DNA of 64,000 nucleotides from Hirudo medicinalis (Eukaryota > Annelida > Clitellata > Hirudinida > Hirudinidae): assembly GCA_011800805.1 (NCBI GenBank), contig MPNW01000081.1, forward strand, positions 209,945 through 273,944, read 5' to 3'. The position numbers were made by a program, and so were the translations under genes. The notes under the pieces were generated by a model. The model searched no databases. It was not told the origin of the DNA and saw only the letters and a list, made by a program, of their open reading frames with translations. This document shows positions 11,201-59,375 of this stretch, in pieces. How positions within the stretch are numbered: the stretch's first letter is position 1; each line of letters starts with the position of its first letter.

Positions 11201-13288
11201 TCATATTCAAGTAATTACATCATAAATTTTAATCCGGTTTTTTTTTAGCTAGAAAAGTAAAATTAAAAATTATTATTAAAACATAATTATCCATTCCAGC
11301 ATCATCGGAAAATTTGAATTTGGTGAATTTGGAAAATTGTTTAATTTGCGGAGCAAAAACAAATTTATACATTTTTTCATTGATATCATACGTCCAATGT
11401 CTATTTGAGTAATTAACTCGTTTTTACAGTATTAAGTACATTTTACTAACTTGTATAATGTAACAGTAAAATGTCATAAGTATTATGGAAAATCAATCAA
11501 TAGTTTTGCGTTCATTCAACTGTTGGTATCATTTCCGCCATAATCGATGTTAATAACCTTGGAACCATCAACGGCAAAGAATGGATTAAAGACCCCAATT
11601 TTTCCAATTGTTTGGATTGGCTTTTTTCTTTTCCAACTGAAAAATCAAGTGATTCGTGAAAACTCGGATGGACTTTTGTTGACAAACGAACCTTTTGTGG
11701 CATGCGATGTAGCCTATGAAAAAGAGTATTAAGAGGCAGCACAGGAGGCTAAGGGTTAATCCTATGGCTGAAAAGAATTGGAAAAAGATATCTTAATTAC
11801 ATATTATTTACAACACCAATTAAATAATTTTCTTCTGCAATTTCATTTTTTTATGTCAGCGGAGGCGTGGCCTGTCTAAAGTAATATAAAAACCTCATAA
11901 TTGTTAAAACTTATTAATCCAATTAAAGGTTATTTGGCTACTACGCTGTGAAGATAATAATCTCTTTTTTAATGAAATATTAAACAGAATACCTCCGAGA
12001 ACAAGTGCAGAACGTTCGTCGCCATTATTGTTTTTGTTGTAATCTGGTGTAATTCCGTCTGATGATTTGATTTGAAATTGATTTGCATTCCCCGTGAAGA
12101 CAAACTAACATTCATTAATTCACTCACTAGTCATGATGACCTTGGCTAATATCTGTTTCTTATGTGAGTATTTCCAGTCGAAAAATAAAACTCGCGTCGT
12201 GCTTTAGGTTTGAATGATAAACAATTTATAGAATTTACGATATGCATCACTGAACACTGGTGATTGTTGCGCAGAAAATCGCCCGCACAGTTTGTCAAAA
12301 TCATAATAAACCTTTGCCTTGAAATGTTGATTCAAAGGGTGATGATTTTTTTCCTATTTTTATTTACTTTATTACTTTATTACAAGAATTGAAAACTGGG
12401 CTTTTGCTTTATTATTTTTATTCAGATTACAAATATTTCGCGGAGCACTTGAAATCAGCCTGGAGACTCTCAAAGTGCATGCTTGGTTAGCGAGTGCTGA
12501 GGCGAACAGATCAATTGTTACCTTCCACTACTTCGTTACTGGAACTGATAATAGATGAGTTGGACCAGCGGCGTTATTTGGCTGTGTTGTCCCCATGACT
12601 TTTGGCGGGAAGCAAAATAAAAAGATCATCTCTTCAAGTTGTTCGAAGGTTTGCACCGCCACCCTCTCCGGAAAAAAGCTGAAATAACGTCCCTGGTCGG
12701 ATTCGTTTAGGATAACCTGGTCTTTGAGATATCGTAGCAGCGATTGGCAATTTGTAGAATTTGATAATTTCTTTCCAAAGTCTTGGCTGCCTTGCAAACG
12801 CTTACAAAAAAAACCTCTTTGGAAATCAGAAAACTTCGAACCTTTTGATGTCTGCTTCCAGTTTGCATAGTCGTGAATTTACTATTTTGAAAAACACTCT
12901 TTTGTGTCCAAAGGCCGCACTATGTTATAGCAGCAAACCAAGTTCACTGACATAATTAATATAAATAACGCATAGGCTTCCGTACCGAATATTGGAAATC
13001 TTAAAAAAATAGACCTTTCTAAATCCATTACCAATTGAAGACATTAAGACAATGTATTATTATGATTTCACGACAACTTTGATGGCCACAACGACGTGAT
13101 TTTATTGATGAAAAGTAATTTTGATTTCTTCAATTAGTTCCAATTCCATGTTCAGACGTTGGAACTTCCGTGCATGATGGTTTTCCAGGAAAATGTGTCG
13201 AACATGTCATTCCCATTGTTACTGTTGGAATGAATAATTAGTTGTAACTAATATAATAATCTTTAAAAATGTTCTGTGATTGCATCCA
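8213..13288. other. Gene-poor interval between the SOBP-like and PAN/lectin genes
   Basis: No gene recognised. 8.2-9.3 kb and 10.3-12.4 kb are AT-rich. A minus-strand ORF at 12528-12797 (89 residues, ordinary amino-acid composition, no Met needed) is the only candidate exon and matches nothing I know. The missing 5' exons of the SOBP-like gene should lie in the first part of this interval. Confidence 0.4.
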
Positions 13289-16095
13289 TCAGTTTACTAA
13301 CTGTAAATTTCTGCAAAGAAGGACAACAAGTAAAACTAGTAATAGCAGACTGAATAATCCAAACGACGTGCCGAGAGCTAAAAGTAAAAATTTGCTTCGT
13401 TATGTAAAACTTCATTTAGTGAAGTTGTAAGCAATTGTTAAAACCTCCAAGAATCAAGGCCGTTCTATCCTTATTTTCTTTTTTTGTGGCAGTGGCAGGT
13501 GAATTCGTTGAAGGAACAGTAAATGTTTCAGGCGATGTTGACGTTGTTGCATTCTTCGGAGGCAAAGAAATTGGAGGCGAAATTGTCATATTGAAAGCCG
13601 GATATGCGGTGGGAGACATAGAAAAATTTTCTGGAGAATTGGAAGGCGTGACATCATATTTCATTGATGTCGTACTTATTGAAGGCGACGATGATGGTGA
13701 TAATGAACTTGGCATGGTATTTGATATAATGAAAGGAGATGAAGTTGAGGAGGGTGAAGAAAGAGCATCCGTTGGTAATGGAAATGTCGAGGTAGGTGAA
13801 GGTGAGAAAGTCACATTCTGAGGAAGGTTGTCAGTAGATGTCGTTGAAGTCGCATCTGTCGATGGCGATAATGATGATGATGGTGACAATGAATTTGATA
13901 TGGCATTTGATAATGTGACTCTAGATGAAGTAGAGGAGGGTGAAGAAAGATCCGTTGGTAATGGAAATGTCGAGCTAGGTGAAGGTGAGAAAGTCTCATT
14001 CTTAGGAAGATTGTCAGTAGATGTCGTTGGCGATGATGGTGATGGTGATAACGAATTTGTTATGGCATTTGATGAGGTAGATGAGGGTGAAGAAAGAGAA
14101 TTTGTTAATGAAACAGAATGTTGTGGAAAGATTCTTGATGGCTGGGTAAGAATGGGAAAAGTTGTTTCTGGTAGAACTTTTGGATCAAAGGTATAAACAG
14201 GAAATGAAGCAGAAGGTAACAAAGAAGTTGAAGTGGACAGATTGGTTGTCGCATCTATTTGGAGTTCTAAAACATGAAATAACATTATAAAATCAAATTT
14301 ACCATAAAAGTTTTAATTTAAGCAACTTACTTGAACAAGTGAATGATATCGATACTGAGTTTGGACCCTTTTCATCAGTTAAACAAACGCTTTTTGAAAC
14401 GAAAAATTTATTAATTTCTGCTCTCAAAAGGCACGATCTGTTCAAAGTACAATTTCTAATGGAGTCACTGTAGTTGTTATTAAAGAAATCCAAGTTGAAG
14501 GTAGCCAATTGGCCATTGTCGAGTGGATAAATGTTTCGTTGGAGAACATCCTTGCAACAGAAAGGATTGTCCCTGTAATTCAGAGAAGTAATGGCCACGT
14601 TAGAACCTTCGGGGCACCACTGAGAAATTTGTGGAAATGTTTGTCCTATGCATCGAGCGTAGGATTTATTGTTGGGATTTCCTGACAATTTCAATTATAT
14701 TTTACTCGATTCAGACATGCATTATTATATAATCAAGATGCTTACCTATACATTCCTTTTTATCGAATAAATAAATTGTCGATGAAGGATTTTCGATAAG
14801 ATTGAGTGGATCAGCAAAATCAAAACTTGAGAAAACTTTGCAAAAAGGCCAGGAAGTACTATCGAAGGCGATCCCATTGCAGGAGTCAGTGAATCTGCAA
14901 TAAGAGAAACACGAAGAAATGTTTGCGAGACCAAGTTCTGTGTAATTGGAACTGCTCGATTTATTTGTCGATGTATGCCACGATGAGGGACATTCTGCAA
15001 TAAAAATTAAAATCTCCAAACAGATCCAGATGATTATGAGTTCAATCGAAATTCTTTGGATAATAAAATTGTTGGAAACAGTATAAATTCAATTAGCGCA
15101 GCACCACGAATAACAACCCAACAAAATAATCTTATAGAAGATTAGCAATGATACATAATTTATTGTAATTACAACTTAATTGTCTTTGGTTTAAAAAATT
15201 ACTTATGAACCTTCTTTGGAAACGTTAATTGATGCACAATTATCCAGTGAGTACTGACTCACTGCGGGATCATCATCATATACACTGAAAGTAATTATTT
15301 AAAATCGATTAAATTTAGAATGATTTGTTAATTAAATTAAAATATTTATTTTGCATTCAAGCCCTAATCTTTAAACTACAAGGTGGCATTCAAAAGCAGC
15401 ACAAGCAGAAGTTATGTCCACGTAAATAAAACTTTTACCACATTGGACTCTATTCCATAAAATACTGTAAATCTCAATATTAAATTAAATGAGGTAATGA
15501 CCATATTAAGTGCTTGTGTAATAGGTTATTATATTTTTAATATTTAAATGTACGCAGTCCTAATTTTTATTGTGTCATGTATTTGCTTTCTTTAGAATCT
15601 GCAATATTTCGAAGTCTTACCTATCTGACGAATTGTAGGCAGGGTCAGAATGCATCCAGCATGAATTAGTAAGATGATTGAAATCAACTGCGAGGCAATC
15701 CACTGTTGACTGACAGTAAATCAAACATTTCGTCAAAGAGATCACATTCTTGGGATCTATGACTCCGGTGACGTCAATGGCTCCGATGGAATGAACACCC
15801 TCCCTTTTCCTCCATGTTGCCAGACAAACCTCGTCTGAATCTATCTTCCAAGAAGCATTGTAAATAATCTTTAATTAATGTAATGTTAATATAAATATGA
15901 ATAACTACATTTGCTATGAGCTCTTATATAAATACATCTATATCTTAGTTACTTTATTAATTAGTCTAAATTGTATTAAATTGTGATGTGTTTAAAATAA
16001 CAATTCTTTTACACCCATATTACTAACTTACCGCTGCCCTGGATAGTCAAAGCAAAAGCAGCCTGAATGACGACAATAGATACAAACTTAAACAT
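13289..16095 (-). CDS. Type I membrane protein: signal peptide, two PAN-like domains, SUEL-type lectin, mucin stalk, TM
   Basis: Seven exons on the minus strand, all in phase: 16095-16032, 15840-15621, 15284-15211, 14994-14746, 14681-14331, 14266-13445 and 13377-13289 (622 residues). Exon 1 is a signal peptide (MFKFVSIVVIQAAFALTI). Exons 2-3 form a PAN/apple-like domain with CLIYCQSTVDCLAVDF, and exon 4 a second one (CFSYCRFTDSCNGIAF). Exon 5 resembles a galactose-binding SUEL lectin domain, ending in FVSKSVCLTDEKG and SISFTC. Exon 6 is a 274-residue Ser/Thr/Pro mucin-like stalk with internal repeats. Exon 7 gives a membrane helix (LFSLLLLVLLVVLLC) and a tail of about eight residues. Nearly all introns are phase 1, typical of shuffled extracellular modules. 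Two donors (15211, 13445) are weak. Likely a cell-surface glycan- or protein-binding receptor or mucin; ligand unknown. Confidence 0.85.
13445..14266 (-). repeat. Intragenic mucin-type repeat (exon 6)
   Basis: The stalk exon is built from about three diverged copies of a 50-65-residue unit containing SLSPSSS, TSTDNLP.N.TFSPSP and STFPLPTD..SSPSSTSS. The repetition is visible in the DNA at 13750-13830, 13915-14000 and 14010-14100. Expected to be heavily O-glycosylated and length-polymorphic. Confidence 0.85.
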
Positions 16096-23916: not shown

Positions 23917-26590
23917 ATGCCATTCTCAATGGAAATGTACAATGTTGCACCCAGGACACTTAGAATAAAAGGCTTGCCTGATGACTTTGTAAGTGAGGAA
24001 CTAAATGATATAGCTTCCCATTATGGAATTGTTGAGAAGTACTTTCTTAGTGAGTAAGATTCACATTCACATTCAGCTTACTGTCAGAATGTTATTGCAA
24101 TTTTTATATTATCATTTAGATGATGATAAAACAGCAGTTGTTACATTTTCTTCTCAACAGTCTGCAAAAGAGTGGGTAGTCTAAGAATTCATTTTGAAAT
24201 AAATGCTTACTGCCATCACCTAAATTTAAGCTGACTAAAACCAACTTGCAGAGCCCTTGCAAAGTTAAACTCACTTGAAATTCGCAATTCAAAGCTTCAG
24301 GTGACTCTTACAATTGGATAGATTTTATTTAAATTTGAATTGGACTATTCAGTGCAACTTTTTTGACAAATTGTTTTGCTAAATGTGACTAAAATGAAAT
24401 TTGATATGGTTGAATTATTAGAACTTTTATAAACACTATTAGTTGAGGGACACCTTAGTTTGTTTTATTTATAATTCTGAGCAACAACAAGCAGTCAAAG
24501 TTGCTACAAAGGGAATCGCAACTGCTAGAAGAGTTGCAGATAAATAGAAAAGGCAAATGTGACCTAAGAAATAAAAGTTGATTGGTTCATGAGGTTGCTT
24601 CTCTTAGGATCTTGAATGTGAAGCTATCATCTGCATTCCTCTAAGATATTGTTGCTTATTCTTTAAATTGATATTTGCTCCAGGCTGAGATAGCGTTCAG
24701 TTTGAAAACGAACGGACCTTCCAACAGGTTTTCTGCTCTTCAAAACAATCGCAATAAAACAAATTGTCCTGTGAAGTAAGCTTTATTCTCTACCTCCTCC
24801 TTCTGAAACTTTATTGGCATTGTTTGTCTTTAGAATATTAGTTGCCAGTGAGTTGGTTGGAGCAATTATTGGCAAGAAGGGTGCAACCATCAAGAACATA
24901 ACGACGCAGCACAAGGCCAGGTATCTTATATTGTAATTATATTAGATATGCAGTTAATTATTCTCAATTAAATAATCATCATTTGTAGAGTGGATGTGCA
25001 TGGAAAGGAAAATTCGGGATTGGCCGAAAAGGTCGTGTGACTCGAAGCATGTTTAGGCAACTTAATAATTGGAATATTCTTAAAATTCAGATTATTTCCA
25101 TCTACGGCCAGCCTGAGAACTGCTCCAATGCTCTTAGAGAGATCCTGAAGGTTGTGGAGAGTGAATCAATTGACCACGAGCACGGGTTGGCATTCATTCA
25201 TTGTATCGTATTTATTCATTGTTTGCATACATTTAAGCATTTGCTTAGTTGGAATGTGATTTGTTGTGCAGGACTTCGTTGCTCAAGATGTTGGTTGAGG
25301 ACAGATATTGCGGAAGGATCATAGGGAAGGAAGGAAAGATCATCAAAAAGTTGAAGGAGGAGACAGACACTAAAATAAGTGTCTCAAAGTGAGTGGAATA
25401 AGTCTTATAAAGTTGCTTTGCTATTGCAACACCTCCCGCTCTTTGTGTGCAGCATGCAAGACATGATGTCCATTTATCCTGACCGGGTTATCGCCATCAG
25501 GGGTGCCATAGACAACATTATCAGGCTCAGTCTTCAATTTCTCAGAAGTTGAATGAGTTCATGGATCGCGATGTTGCCTCTAATGCTCTTCTTTGCAACG
25601 TTCGTTTCTCAACCTAAACAAAAATTAAGTTTTAGTCATTATTCTAATGCCTTGGTATGCATCAGATGGCAGTGCCTGGAGGAATTGTCTCCAACTCTCT
25701 TCGTCGCCCTCTCGGTTCTGATTTTGTGAGTGGATCCCGAGTCTAAATGATGCCACGAAATTTGGTTGAACTCCTGCTTATTCCAGGTAAATAACCTCCA
25801 GGGAGACCAACGTTCGGTGCAGTCGGAAATGTGTCAAATTGTCGTTCCGAACTCTATCGTCGGATCCATTATAGGCACGGGAGGTTCTATCATCAAGCAG
25901 ATCATGCAAGACTCAAACGCTCATGTTGTGGTATGATTAGCATTTTGTTTACGTAGTTTATCTTCATCGTTTTAGTCTCAGGCTGATAAATCTGCAAAAC
26001 AAAGATGTGATCTGATTTGTCCTTTCCAACAGGTGGAGCCAAAAAATGAAAAAGATGAGAACATGGAGAGGATTGTCACCATCAAAGGAACAGCTGATGC
26101 TTGCTGGAAGGTCGCCATCGATTGTGTTTCATTGTCTTGGAGGAAAAGATGTGCTTAACTGACTTAAGTGTTTGTTGCCATCAGGCCAGCTATTTCATCT
26201 TTGAGAAGGTCAAGGGGGAGGGCATGGTAGGGAGCGATGACAGACTCAAGACGGGGTTGATGGTCCCCGCAGCTCTGATCGGGCGAGTGATTGGAAAGAA
26301 CGGAAAGAATGTGCGAGAGGTTCAGAGAATGACAGGAGCAATGATCAAGCTGTGTGACAACCAGAAGGATCAGTCAGATGAAGTGCTGGTGGAGGTGTTT
26401 GGGAATTTCATGGCCACTCAGGTGGGTGGCAGTCACCATGTGACTGATAATCATTGATGGTAATTGTTTCATTATTAATTAATTGTTTACTTTGGGATGA
26501 CAGGGAGCCCATAACCGCATCAGGGCTCTCATCAGTCAGCCCGTGCAGGGTCCCCCAAGATCCCAGAGAGGTGACCGCAACCACGTCTGA
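23917..26590 (+). CDS. IGF2 mRNA-binding protein (Imp/IGF2BP/VICKZ family)
   Basis: Fourteen exons; starts at MPFSMEMYNV (23917; 23935 is an alternative Met) and ends TGA 26588-26590. Exons: 23917-24049, 24120-24171, 24252-24300, 24684-24775, 24834-24920, 24989-25031, 25091-25185, 25272-25388, 25453-25599, 25666-25725, 25787-25930, 26033-26110, 26185-26421, 26504-26590. The protein, about 473 residues, has one RRM (PRTLRIKGLPDDF; DDKTAVVTF) resembling RRM2 of vertebrate IGF2BPs, then four KH domains with GXXG loops: IIGKKGATIK, IIGKEGKIIK, IIGTGGSIIK and VIGKNGKNVR. It ends in a short Arg-rich tail. The family binds mRNAs in cytoplasmic granules and controls their stability, transport and translation. 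Exon 25453-25599 is one nucleotide short of phase, implying a frameshift near 25505-25545 in the linker after KH2. RRM1 appears absent. Confidence 0.93.
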
Positions 26591-49076: not shown

Positions 49077-51817
49077 TCAACCTCTGAGAGGCGGGACGTG
49101 AGGACCAGCATGAGAAATGCTTCCCGTTCCTCTGACGAGAGCTCTTCCCCTTGCATCAGAGAAAGCGGAAGGATAGTTGAGGTAGTCCTCGTGTTCGTAC
49201 CCCGTGAAGTAGTCGTCCGTGTAGCTTCCTCCCCTGAAGTCACGTCCGTAATACTCTATCGGATAACCTACGAGGACGTTTGTTCTTACTACAACTTTTG
49301 GAACTTCCTTCAATTTCTCCAATTCAATTCAAAGTCCGTTAAGGAACCATTAATTACTGTTGGTTGTTCGTAAGAGTTTAAACTTGATTAAAATAGTTAG
49401 TAAAAGTTAGTATTATTAAAAGAATACTTTGCACACATCAAATTATGCAAAAATTATGGACATCAATAAACATTTAGATGTCCAAAAACCTGGCATGTGA
49501 GACCTGAATCCTCCTCTAAATGCAAACGGAGGACGACCGGGTCTCCCCACGCCCCTGATGGGGATGAGTCCGTGACCCCCATACATGGGAGGAAGGAACG
49601 AGTCATCGTATCTGCAAAATTAGACTCAAATTATTCCACAATAACCTCCTGTGCTTCAGACAGTCAAACTTACGCCCCCCGACCATATAAGTGCTTGAAT
49701 TGCTGTCTTCTTTTCTCCTTTTGTTTGTTTTCTGATGGAGCTTTGCAAGGGATATCTGCATCTCTGAGTCGCCAAGTTTCTGAATGAAACATCATTTTTA
49801 AATTTTTTGTCTGAATATTAACTGTACTTGCTTAGAGAACATTACAATTAAAAAGAAAAGGGTAATCATAACAAATGACAAATCTCCATCACAAGAACAA
49901 GCTGGAGAGTGCAGGTAAAGCTCGAATCGAACTGCTTACTTTTCCTTGAAGTTCCTGCATAGCTTGCAGAGCTTGTTCTCTGTCCTCAAAGTGCACAAAG
50001 CTGTAGTCCTTGACTTTCTTTACTCGTTCTACCTTTCCATACTGTTCGAAGGCAGCTCTCAGCTGCTCATCGGTGACACTGGACTTCAAGTTACGGACGT
50101 AGAGGACTTTAACCTGAAGCCGTAAAACAATTAAAGAATAATTGAATTAATAGTAACAAAACGTCTGTCTTATTAGTTCAACATAATCAAATACACTACT
50201 ATTATTGTCATCCTTTAACCAAGGCAGACCTTGGACATCGTCTCTTCGTCGGGTTCTTCGAGCGGGTCTGCCCAGTCCACGATGATGTCGCACCCCCACA
50301 CCCTCATGTAACCACTGCCAATCTTGTGTTTGGCCAGTGAGGCACTCTTGTGGCTGTCGTACTCGAGAAATGAAAATCCCCGATTCTTTTTCTTCGTATC
50401 GTCAGGAGAGCTGTATATTATTACATCTACCAGGCCATCTGCAATCGATCATTAACATCACCACCGACCATCGACATCTTAAGTTAATATCTCAAACATC
50501 TGTGGCACCTGTGTGCTTTCGAAACTCTTCGAGAATATCTTCTCTGCTTTTATTCTTAGGTATATTGCCAACAAATAATCTGACATTGGCCACTGATATG
50601 TTAACCTTCAAAAACTTTCCAGGGATTATTTCGTGTCCATTGTACTGAATGAAGACATCAAATGTGTCACAAATCTAACAATAAGAAGTACTAAACACAA
50701 CAATTAAGTTCACTTTTTTGACTGCTTCTTGAGCTCCTTCTTTACATGAGAATGTAACAAAGCAAAAACCCCTGCTATATCCGGTAATGGGGTCTATCAT
50801 CAGTCTTAGGTTCCAAATAGTTCCGCACTGCTCAAACAACGGTATTAACATGTCTTCAAAAATATCTCTCGGTATTCTGCCACAAAAAATCTATGGAATT
50901 AAAAAAACTATCTGTGAGCAAAGCAGGACAGATGAGGAATCACCAATGGGGAAAGTACTTCGTGCCCGGGTCCCGGTGGATTTCCCTCCCAGTTTGGTGG
51001 AGGGCCACCATATTTCCTCTGTCCGGACGTTACATCCAGGCTGTATCCAGTTCGGTCAAGAATTTCCTGAAGAAAAATTTAAAGTTGCATTTGTTTGTAA
51101 TTTCTTGACATAAACTTATCAAAAGTTGAACTAAAAAGCCTTAATTCTTTAAATTCATTTGAGCAATAAATGAATCATGCAACAATAGCAGAGTCAACAA
51201 CATAAACAAATGAAGAAATGCTTTTAAAGCAAAGTTTTGTTTACATTTAAAACCAGATCATCAGAAAGCAATCAAAAACAAAACAAAAATTTCTCAAATT
51301 ATTCAAAAATGTTTTTTGCATCCCATAATATTTAAAAAAATAGCTAAATAGTTCTGGAACCACCCGACAGATATGATAAATGTCATGCAAAAAGGGATGC
51401 AAATAAAATCATATGAACAAACTTTTAATTTTGTTTCATCAGGACCAGGTCGTTTGAAGGGAAAGTTGTCAGAACCAGCTCTTAGCTTCTGCCTGTAAGT
51501 CTTAATTATACTACACAGTAAGGCACTCTTATTGGAGACGTGTTCAATGTTGGGGGTCTGTTTGAGCTCGGACAATACGGACAGAGCATCCTGTGATGAC
51601 AGTTCCTTCAATGCCTCCCTGGCCCTTTCATCTGGGTCCCCATCTGAAAACAACCCTGGAAAGAAGCGACTGTTAAGTGATCTGCAAAGGATGAAAGGGA
51701 AAGATGGACGAACGCACCCGAAGTATGGAGGGCATCAATTTCTTCGGCCACTTGTTCCTCGAAACCACTGTTGACAAGAGATTTGTAGAATTCACTCTTC
51801 CCTGTATCTGACTCCAT
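49077..51817 (-). CDS. hnRNP Q/R (SYNCRIP family) RNA-binding protein
   Basis: Ten exons: 51817-51718, 51643-51423, 51066-50959, 50890-50714, 50644-50509, 50438-50230, 50113-49940, 49779-49674, 49611-49490 and 49267-49077 (stop). About 514 residues. Order: acidic N-unit (SDGDPDERAREALKEL; NKSALLCSIIKTYRQK), linker with TGYSLDVTSGQRKYGGPPP, RRM1 (IFCGRIPRDIFEDM), RRM2 (RLFVGNIPKNKSREDILEEF), RRM3 (VKVLYVRNLKSSVTDEQL; DYSFVHFEDRE), then a Tyr/Gly/Arg-rich tail (YPIEYYGRDFRGGSY). Family role: pre-mRNA splicing, mRNA stability and transport. Start at MESDTGKSEF; an acceptor just upstream suggests a 5' UTR exon. Exon 49779-49674 is one base short: its first part and the next exon are in different frames, and one extra C at about 49740 would join ISLAK to a normal lysine/glutamine-rich linker. 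Confidence 0.95.
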
Positions 51818-58300: not shown

Positions 58301-59375
58301 CTTTAATTAATTCAAGCTATTTAAACCCCTGATATTTTGTTATTTTGAGTTTCCGGTTGAGTCGAGATTTTCAATAAAAAATATTTTCTATTCTTGTTTC
58401 TTAAAATCGTTGTGAAATAAAGTCTGCAACAATTTGGTGATCCCGTGACTCGTGACTCGTCAAAATAGCCCAAAAAAATTATCTTAAAAACTTATTTAAC
58501 TAAATTAAAATGTAAATTAGTCATATTAAATTGTAAGATTATAAGCAATTCCACGTAGATATTCGAGAGTTTCTGTGTTGCCGTAAGTTGGAACATGAGT
58601 ACGAAGACGTCGACTCAGTTGCACGTACTTAAACTTCGATGCTTCTGGTCTGTCACCTGCCTGAAAACATGTGATGTCGATCTCCACTTTATCTTGTCCA
58701 TTTTGAAACTGGCCAATGAGTTTGAAGAATGATGGATGATGACAATCGATTGTTTGTTGAAAACTGCGATGCCATGCTTCCACTGAATTATTTGTTCTAG
58801 GCAAACCATCAGTGACGCGATCATGGACGTTCCATAGTGGGATGGAAAACCGAGGTTCTGCTCTGCGGTTCCGACTTTGTCTTCCAATGCAGTTGTCTTC
58901 CCAGCAATCGAGCACCTGGATGAATTTCCCTCGGACAACTTTCCACCAAAATTTCTAATGCATTTGTAACGATTGGAACAAAACTTATAGCCAAAAGCAT
59001 CTTAACATGGACATGGATGTTTTCATCATCACGATAGCGGTCTGCCAGATGAAGTTCCTGCACTTTCCTCCATAAACATTGGCCAAGATGGAAAAGGCAT
59101 CCAACCAGTTGAAAGTTTGGGAAAACATGCCTAACAGCATTTTGAATGGCTGTTTCAAAGTCTGCCATCATACTTAACGCGTTAAGTAAAGGCTTTATCT
59201 GACGGACCTTTTCAAAAACCCGAATGTTTGACGCTTCTGTCTTATCTTGTAGAAGGATATACATTAAAGGAACAGCTGATTCATCGACCAATGCGTGAAT
59301 GGTAAAGACTTGAAAAATTTCTGGAGCCACTTTGAAAGTGCTGCAGAATATCCAGATTTTGTCCAGTTCCGAACA

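Follow-up and report, generated by a model that had tools for sequence, protein, structure and literature searches.

The window analysed here, a stretch of 64,000 nucleotides of Hirudo medicinalis DNA (C81:209945-273944 in a genome of 133 Mb and 1557 contigs), carries on its minus strand a seven-exon gene predicted to encode a membrane protein with two PAN modules, an eight-cysteine module and a mucin-like stalk. We give a probability of about one half to the reading, drawn by analogy, that this protein is a component of the apical glycocalyx or matrix, in which PAN modules are borne on a mucin stalk and anchored in the membrane without a ZP-C domain. After removal of the leader, the product of this single gene would be a type I membrane glycoprotein in which a stalk of about 270 residues carries the two PAN modules and the eight-cysteine module at its outer end. 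This stalk, probably O-glycosylated, would hold the modules away from the epithelial (apical) surface and would serve for spacing and hydration, the PAN modules would bind matrix proteins or sugars, and the single helix would anchor the protein, its seven-residue tail leaving no room for a usual signalling motif.

Gene model, modules and conservation

Joined, the seven minus-strand exons (16095..13289) give an uninterrupted frame of 1869 bases for 622 residues and the stop codon (Table 1), so that both the coordinates and the protein size given in the initial annotation were correct. The introns, which from the first to the sixth measure 191, 336, 216, 64, 64 and 67 bases according to the exon coordinates, are all of the GT-AG type (6/6), with phases 1, 2, 1, 1, 1 and 1. 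As had been claimed, phase-1 introns flank every module, and the sole phase-2 intron falls inside the first PAN module. With five phase-1 introns bordering four modules of a putative surface protein, the gene would be a clean instance of the exon-shuffling prediction. As far as the sequence can show, the gene model holds: the exons join in frame, and all seven would be spliced together into one message. An AATAAA motif is found about 180 bases below the stop codon.

Table 1. Positions in the window of the exons and associated features.
Feature	Position	Strand	Remark
Exon 1: start codon and signal-like leader, residues 1-21	16032..16095	-	leader judged by eye
Exon 2: most of PAN module 1, residues 22-94	15621..15840	-	Pfam PAN_1 over cut-off
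Exon 3: end of PAN module 1 including sixth cysteine C111, residues 95-119	15211..15284	-	
Exon 4: PAN module 2, residues 120-202, phase 1-1	14746..14994	-	orthologue P0002
Exon 5: eight-cysteine module, residues 203-319, phase 1-1; SUEL-like at best	14331..14681	-	orthologue P0001
Exon 6: mucin-like stalk, residues 320-593, phase 1-1	13445..14266	-	57% Ser/Thr/Pro, no Cys
Exon 7: membrane helix, seven-residue tail, stop codon	13289..13377	-	
Tandem repeat in stalk: 183-base (61-residue) unit, 1.8 copies, 87% matches	13690..14029	-	
AATAAA, possible polyadenylation signal	13101..13106	-	only A[AT]TAAA in 588 bases below stop

The PAN identity proposed in the initial annotation was confirmed with the Pfam PAN_1 model (PF00024), which scored 28.7 bits on residues 1-320 and 24.8 bits on the whole protein, above its gathering cut-off of 21.4 bits. 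Taken singly, the first module (PAN1, residues 22-119) reached 27.8 bits; the second (PAN2, residues 120-202) reached 15.9 bits and its orthologue (see below) 13.5 bits, both under the cut-off. Each module contains six cysteines in nearly equal spacing (32-3-5-11-28 in PAN1 and 26-3-5-12-29 in PAN2); PAN modules are described with four to six core cysteines (PMC9249922). When compared with six-frame open reading frames (ORFs) from 20 loci of the same genome, both modules found PAN-like ORFs as their best matches (E 5.5e-10 for PAN1, E 2.2e-6 for PAN2), and direct alignment of PAN1 with PAN2 gave nothing meaningful. Because of the Pfam score, the six-cysteine spacing and the match of PAN2 to the PAN-like ORFs of the genome, both modules are assigned by sequence to the PAN family, the second one being diverged. 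The genome holds at least 63 PAN_1 matches at E <= 0.01.

Residues 321-594 comprise 155 Ser, Thr or Pro among 274 (57%) and no cysteine, as expected for the mucin stalk, and the highest Kyte-Doolittle window (residues 597-615, mean 2.75) predicts a single hydrophobic helix, in line with the single transmembrane helix of the initial annotation. Seven residues follow C615. A long cysteine-free Ser/Thr/Pro stalk beside a membrane helix is the configuration of a membrane mucin-like protein. The composite plan of leader, PAN, PAN, third module, mucin stalk and membrane helix is thus supported by the exon model and by Pfam PAN_1.

A protein collection of 5.8 billion entries was searched for orthologues with exon 5 alone, with exons 4 and 5 jointly and with the whole protein scored over residues 20-320. 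The exon 5 frame returned one protein, P0001, as its sole candidate, and the joint search of exons 4 and 5 returned only P0001 and P0002 among 739 candidates. P0002 corresponds to exon 4 (72/83 residues identical, 6/6 cysteines kept) and P0001 to exon 5 (94/116 identical, 8/8 cysteines kept). The contig of either protein measures 5558 bases, and because of this equal length we infer that the contig is the same; this second source has kept exons 4 and 5, which probably lie next to each other there. Beyond the edges of exon 4, only five residues are alike upstream and nine residues stay similar past its end, so that the comparison does not mark the exon edges sharply.

The eight-cysteine module of exon 5

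The third and fourth of the eight cysteines of exon 5 (residues 203-319) are adjacent and stand 34 residues before the fifth. The initial annotation had taken this module for a sea-urchin-egg-lectin (SUEL) domain, an identity that could not be established. SUEL_Lectin (PF02140, Pfam cut-off 31.4 bits) was not listed at E up to 10, with HMMER filters applied, for exon 5, the whole protein or the orthologue, and exon 5 is not among the 68 matches of the same model in the genome. A SUEL profile was then built from 20 of these 68 genome domains (core profile) and was extended upstream to the first cysteine only after the core had given no clear answer. Among 1867 ORFs, which are those of the window and of 13 loci, HMMER ranked exon 5 at position 11 with the core profile and 13 with the extended one, at E about 5.

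Profile comparisons gave a marginal and mixed signal. With hhalign and the core profile, the score of the window sequence was equalled by 24/200 cysteine-fixed shuffles and that of the pair formed with the orthologue by 7/150; the tool's own profile comparison of exon 5 and its orthologue against the 20 SUEL domains returned a probability of 1.4% (E 0.036). Global alignment was no better than shuffles, which did as well in 34/200 cases and in 35/150 and 117/150. With the extended profile, the two-sequence profile scored 18.2, a value reached by 2/150 cysteine-fixed shuffles, by 14/600 in a larger run and by 0/72 PAN-like ORFs, the best of which scored 18.08. The orthologue alone scored 19.75 (reached by 0/72 PAN-like ORFs) and the window sequence alone 13.83 (reached by 16/72). 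Only this extended profile-profile comparison is suggestive of a SUEL relationship.

Part of the signal comes from the start of the module, CIG[QE]TF...CPEGSNV.IT. The orthologue starts with CIGETF...CP, and among the 20 SUEL domains CxxE occurs in 16/20 and CxxETF in 7/20. Exon 5 shares with SUEL domains (latrophilin, CSL3 and the 68 genome matches) a total of eight cysteines, counting the upstream one, and the spacing of the fifth and sixth cysteines, which are five residues apart as in the corresponding pair of latrophilin 1. It differs from them in its adjacent third and fourth cysteines, in the 34 residues before the fifth and in staying under every sequence threshold. It also lacks the YGR motif, whose G16 and R17 are invariant in 20/20 aligned SUEL domains (20 of the genome's 68): exon 5 has YRD at this position (NYRDNP), G16 and R17 being replaced by R and D. 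The YL pair that precedes the last cysteine in at least 90% of these aligned SUEL domains is absent as well. Structure models of exon 5, of which the single-sequence one is all-beta, were too poor in quality for fold assignment.

A strongly diverged SUEL, or rhamnose-binding-lectin, domain would make the protein a receptor for carbohydrate recognition in epithelia, gametes or immune cells. The cysteine number and spacing, the start of the orthologue and the scores obtained with the extended profile speak for this identity, which we nevertheless regard as doubtful given the absence of a Pfam match, the HMMER ranks, the core-profile and global scores at the level of shuffles, the late resort to the extended profile, the modest score of the window sequence alone and the replaced YGR and missing YL residues. 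A degenerate SUEL domain is possible and a working lectin is not supported by these sequences; we therefore label exon 5 an eight-cysteine module, perhaps SUEL-derived. As a tentative alternative, somewhat less doubtful than a SUEL origin, the exon would encode a separate kind of module, distinct from both SUEL and ZP-N and restricted to one narrow lineage of animals, and exon shuffling would have brought it, as a phase 1-1 unit, into a PAN-PAN-mucin membrane protein, both module and architecture being then undescribed. If the module is a degenerate SUEL domain, it would illustrate how a lectin fold that is part of a matrix protein loses its sugar site; otherwise it would be a new module.

Elsewhere in the genome, the sole other match of exon 5 has E 0.18 and 21% identity, so the module appears to have no clear relative there. 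Two further candidates were set aside. DUF282 (PF03380) matched a 23-residue stretch of exon 5 and of its orthologue with E 0.001 and 19.4 bits, under its cut-off of 22.8, and with E 0.18 genome-wide. Among the fetched loci the best match was L037 (E 0.032), a serine-rich frame lying outside the SUEL match of that locus. Clusters of SUEL matches, apparently tandem arrays in which the matches are mostly separated by a few kb, occur in the genome at about 15-63 kb of C498 and at about 4-16 kb of C1460.

Comparison with LET-653 and alternative readings

The closest plan that we found is that of LET-653 of C. elegans, which has a leader, two PAN domains, a ZP-N domain, a Pro/Ser/Thr-rich mucin-like linker and a ZP-C domain with eight cysteines, without a membrane helix; it acts in the luminal apical matrix, binding the luminal core through its PAN domains (PMC4970718). 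The leech protein likewise has a leader, two PAN modules and a cysteine-containing module followed by a Pro/Ser/Thr-rich linker. In contrast to LET-653, no ZP domain was recognised in it and a membrane helix stands in place of ZP-C, the two proteins being likened by plan, with their sequences not compared. Residues 319-614 contain no cysteine and no Pfam ZP match was obtained; because it is without ZP-C, the protein was not filed with the LET-653-like PAN/ZP group. The initial annotation had called the arrangement unlike any named family. The PAN-PAN-module-mucin-helix plan stands; its singularity is reduced by the similar plan of LET-653 (PMC4970718). A literature search on PAN, lectin and mucin proteins, at the level of titles and abstract openings, found no PAN-SUEL-mucin protein. 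No contig is common to the lists of 68 SUEL and 63 PAN_1 matches in the genome; the present gene itself appears in neither of them, which means that this comparison would overlook a diverged or split copy. The gene appears to be a new arrangement of largely known parts.

It is the analogy with LET-653, whose PAN domains bind luminal matrix, that leads us to favour the apical-matrix mechanism. The nearest PAN locus of the genome (C6:163346-167442, in L026) also speaks for it, since PAN exons and Thr-rich linkers are mixed there too; one of its PAN exons is related to PAN1 (34% over query residues 3-90, E 3.8e-6). That locus differs from the present gene in its run of seven PAN-like ORFs (E < 0.02), with a weaker eighth, and in having no match to exon 5. 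If the apical-matrix reading is true, the nematode PAN-mucin plan would extend to a membrane-anchored form. A nearer kinship, in which the third module is ZP-N-like and the protein a LET-653 relative (PAN-PAN-ZP-N-mucin) with a membrane helix replacing ZP-C, agrees with the order of parts in LET-653 up to the mucin linker (PMC4970718) and with the all-beta structure model. It is very improbable in our view. No Pfam match to ZP-N was obtained in exon 5 or in the whole protein, no ZP-N profile being compared. The models PF00100, PF23344 (ZP) and CUT_N PF25057 had 0 matches in the genome, but none in control genomes either, so that this result is uninformative.

Several points weigh against an apical-matrix protein made as one 622-residue chain. 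The same features would be expected of a protein of haemocytes or gametes, or of a signalling partner; the epithelial, gamete or immune recognition receptor of the initial annotation received no direct support, the tail being only seven residues long. The whole-protein query found 0/548 candidates at E <= 0.001, which says little since the collection seems to hold the gene only as single-exon frames. Moreover, introns 3 and 6 have poor donors (GTTCAT and GTTTTA, against the usual GTRAGT); therefore the full-length message is not certain, and isoforms may exist. The join across intron 6, located where the membrane helix begins, is supported despite its weak donor because the joined sequence yields that plausible helix. 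At intron 3, the in-frame TAA foreseen just after 15211 is present just inside the intron, and a read-through frame reaches it within three codons. The poor donor and this stop codon would suit two products, either a short soluble PAN1 protein ending at the TAA of the unspliced intron together with the long form, or two separate genes. We hold this to be unlikely, as the sixth PAN cysteine is followed by eight residues before exon 3 closes in phase 1, and exon 4, preceded by a good acceptor, opens in the matching phase.

Neighbouring genes and other loci

Upstream of the gene and on the same strand lies a trypsin-like serine protease gene (17652-16486, -), for which we propose no functional link; Pfam Trypsin matches of 45.1, 36.3 and 24.0 bits were obtained for three of its exon frames, and AAHC, DDIALLKL and GDSGGP are present. 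In the multi-PAN locus, the PAN-like exons form a row (L026:3346-7442, that is C6:163346-167442) with Thr-rich linkers between some of them, and a nearby frame (L026:8381-8599) carries a WSPWQQCSSWCGGG motif that we take to be thrombospondin-like. Elsewhere in the window, a MULE transposase domain (58821-59375, -; 38.4 bits) is a trace of a transposon, and a KH_1 domain (26098-26457, +; 45.9 bits) and an hnRNP Q acidic domain (51303-51734, -; 46.8 bits) are each probably an exon of an RNA-binding protein gene.
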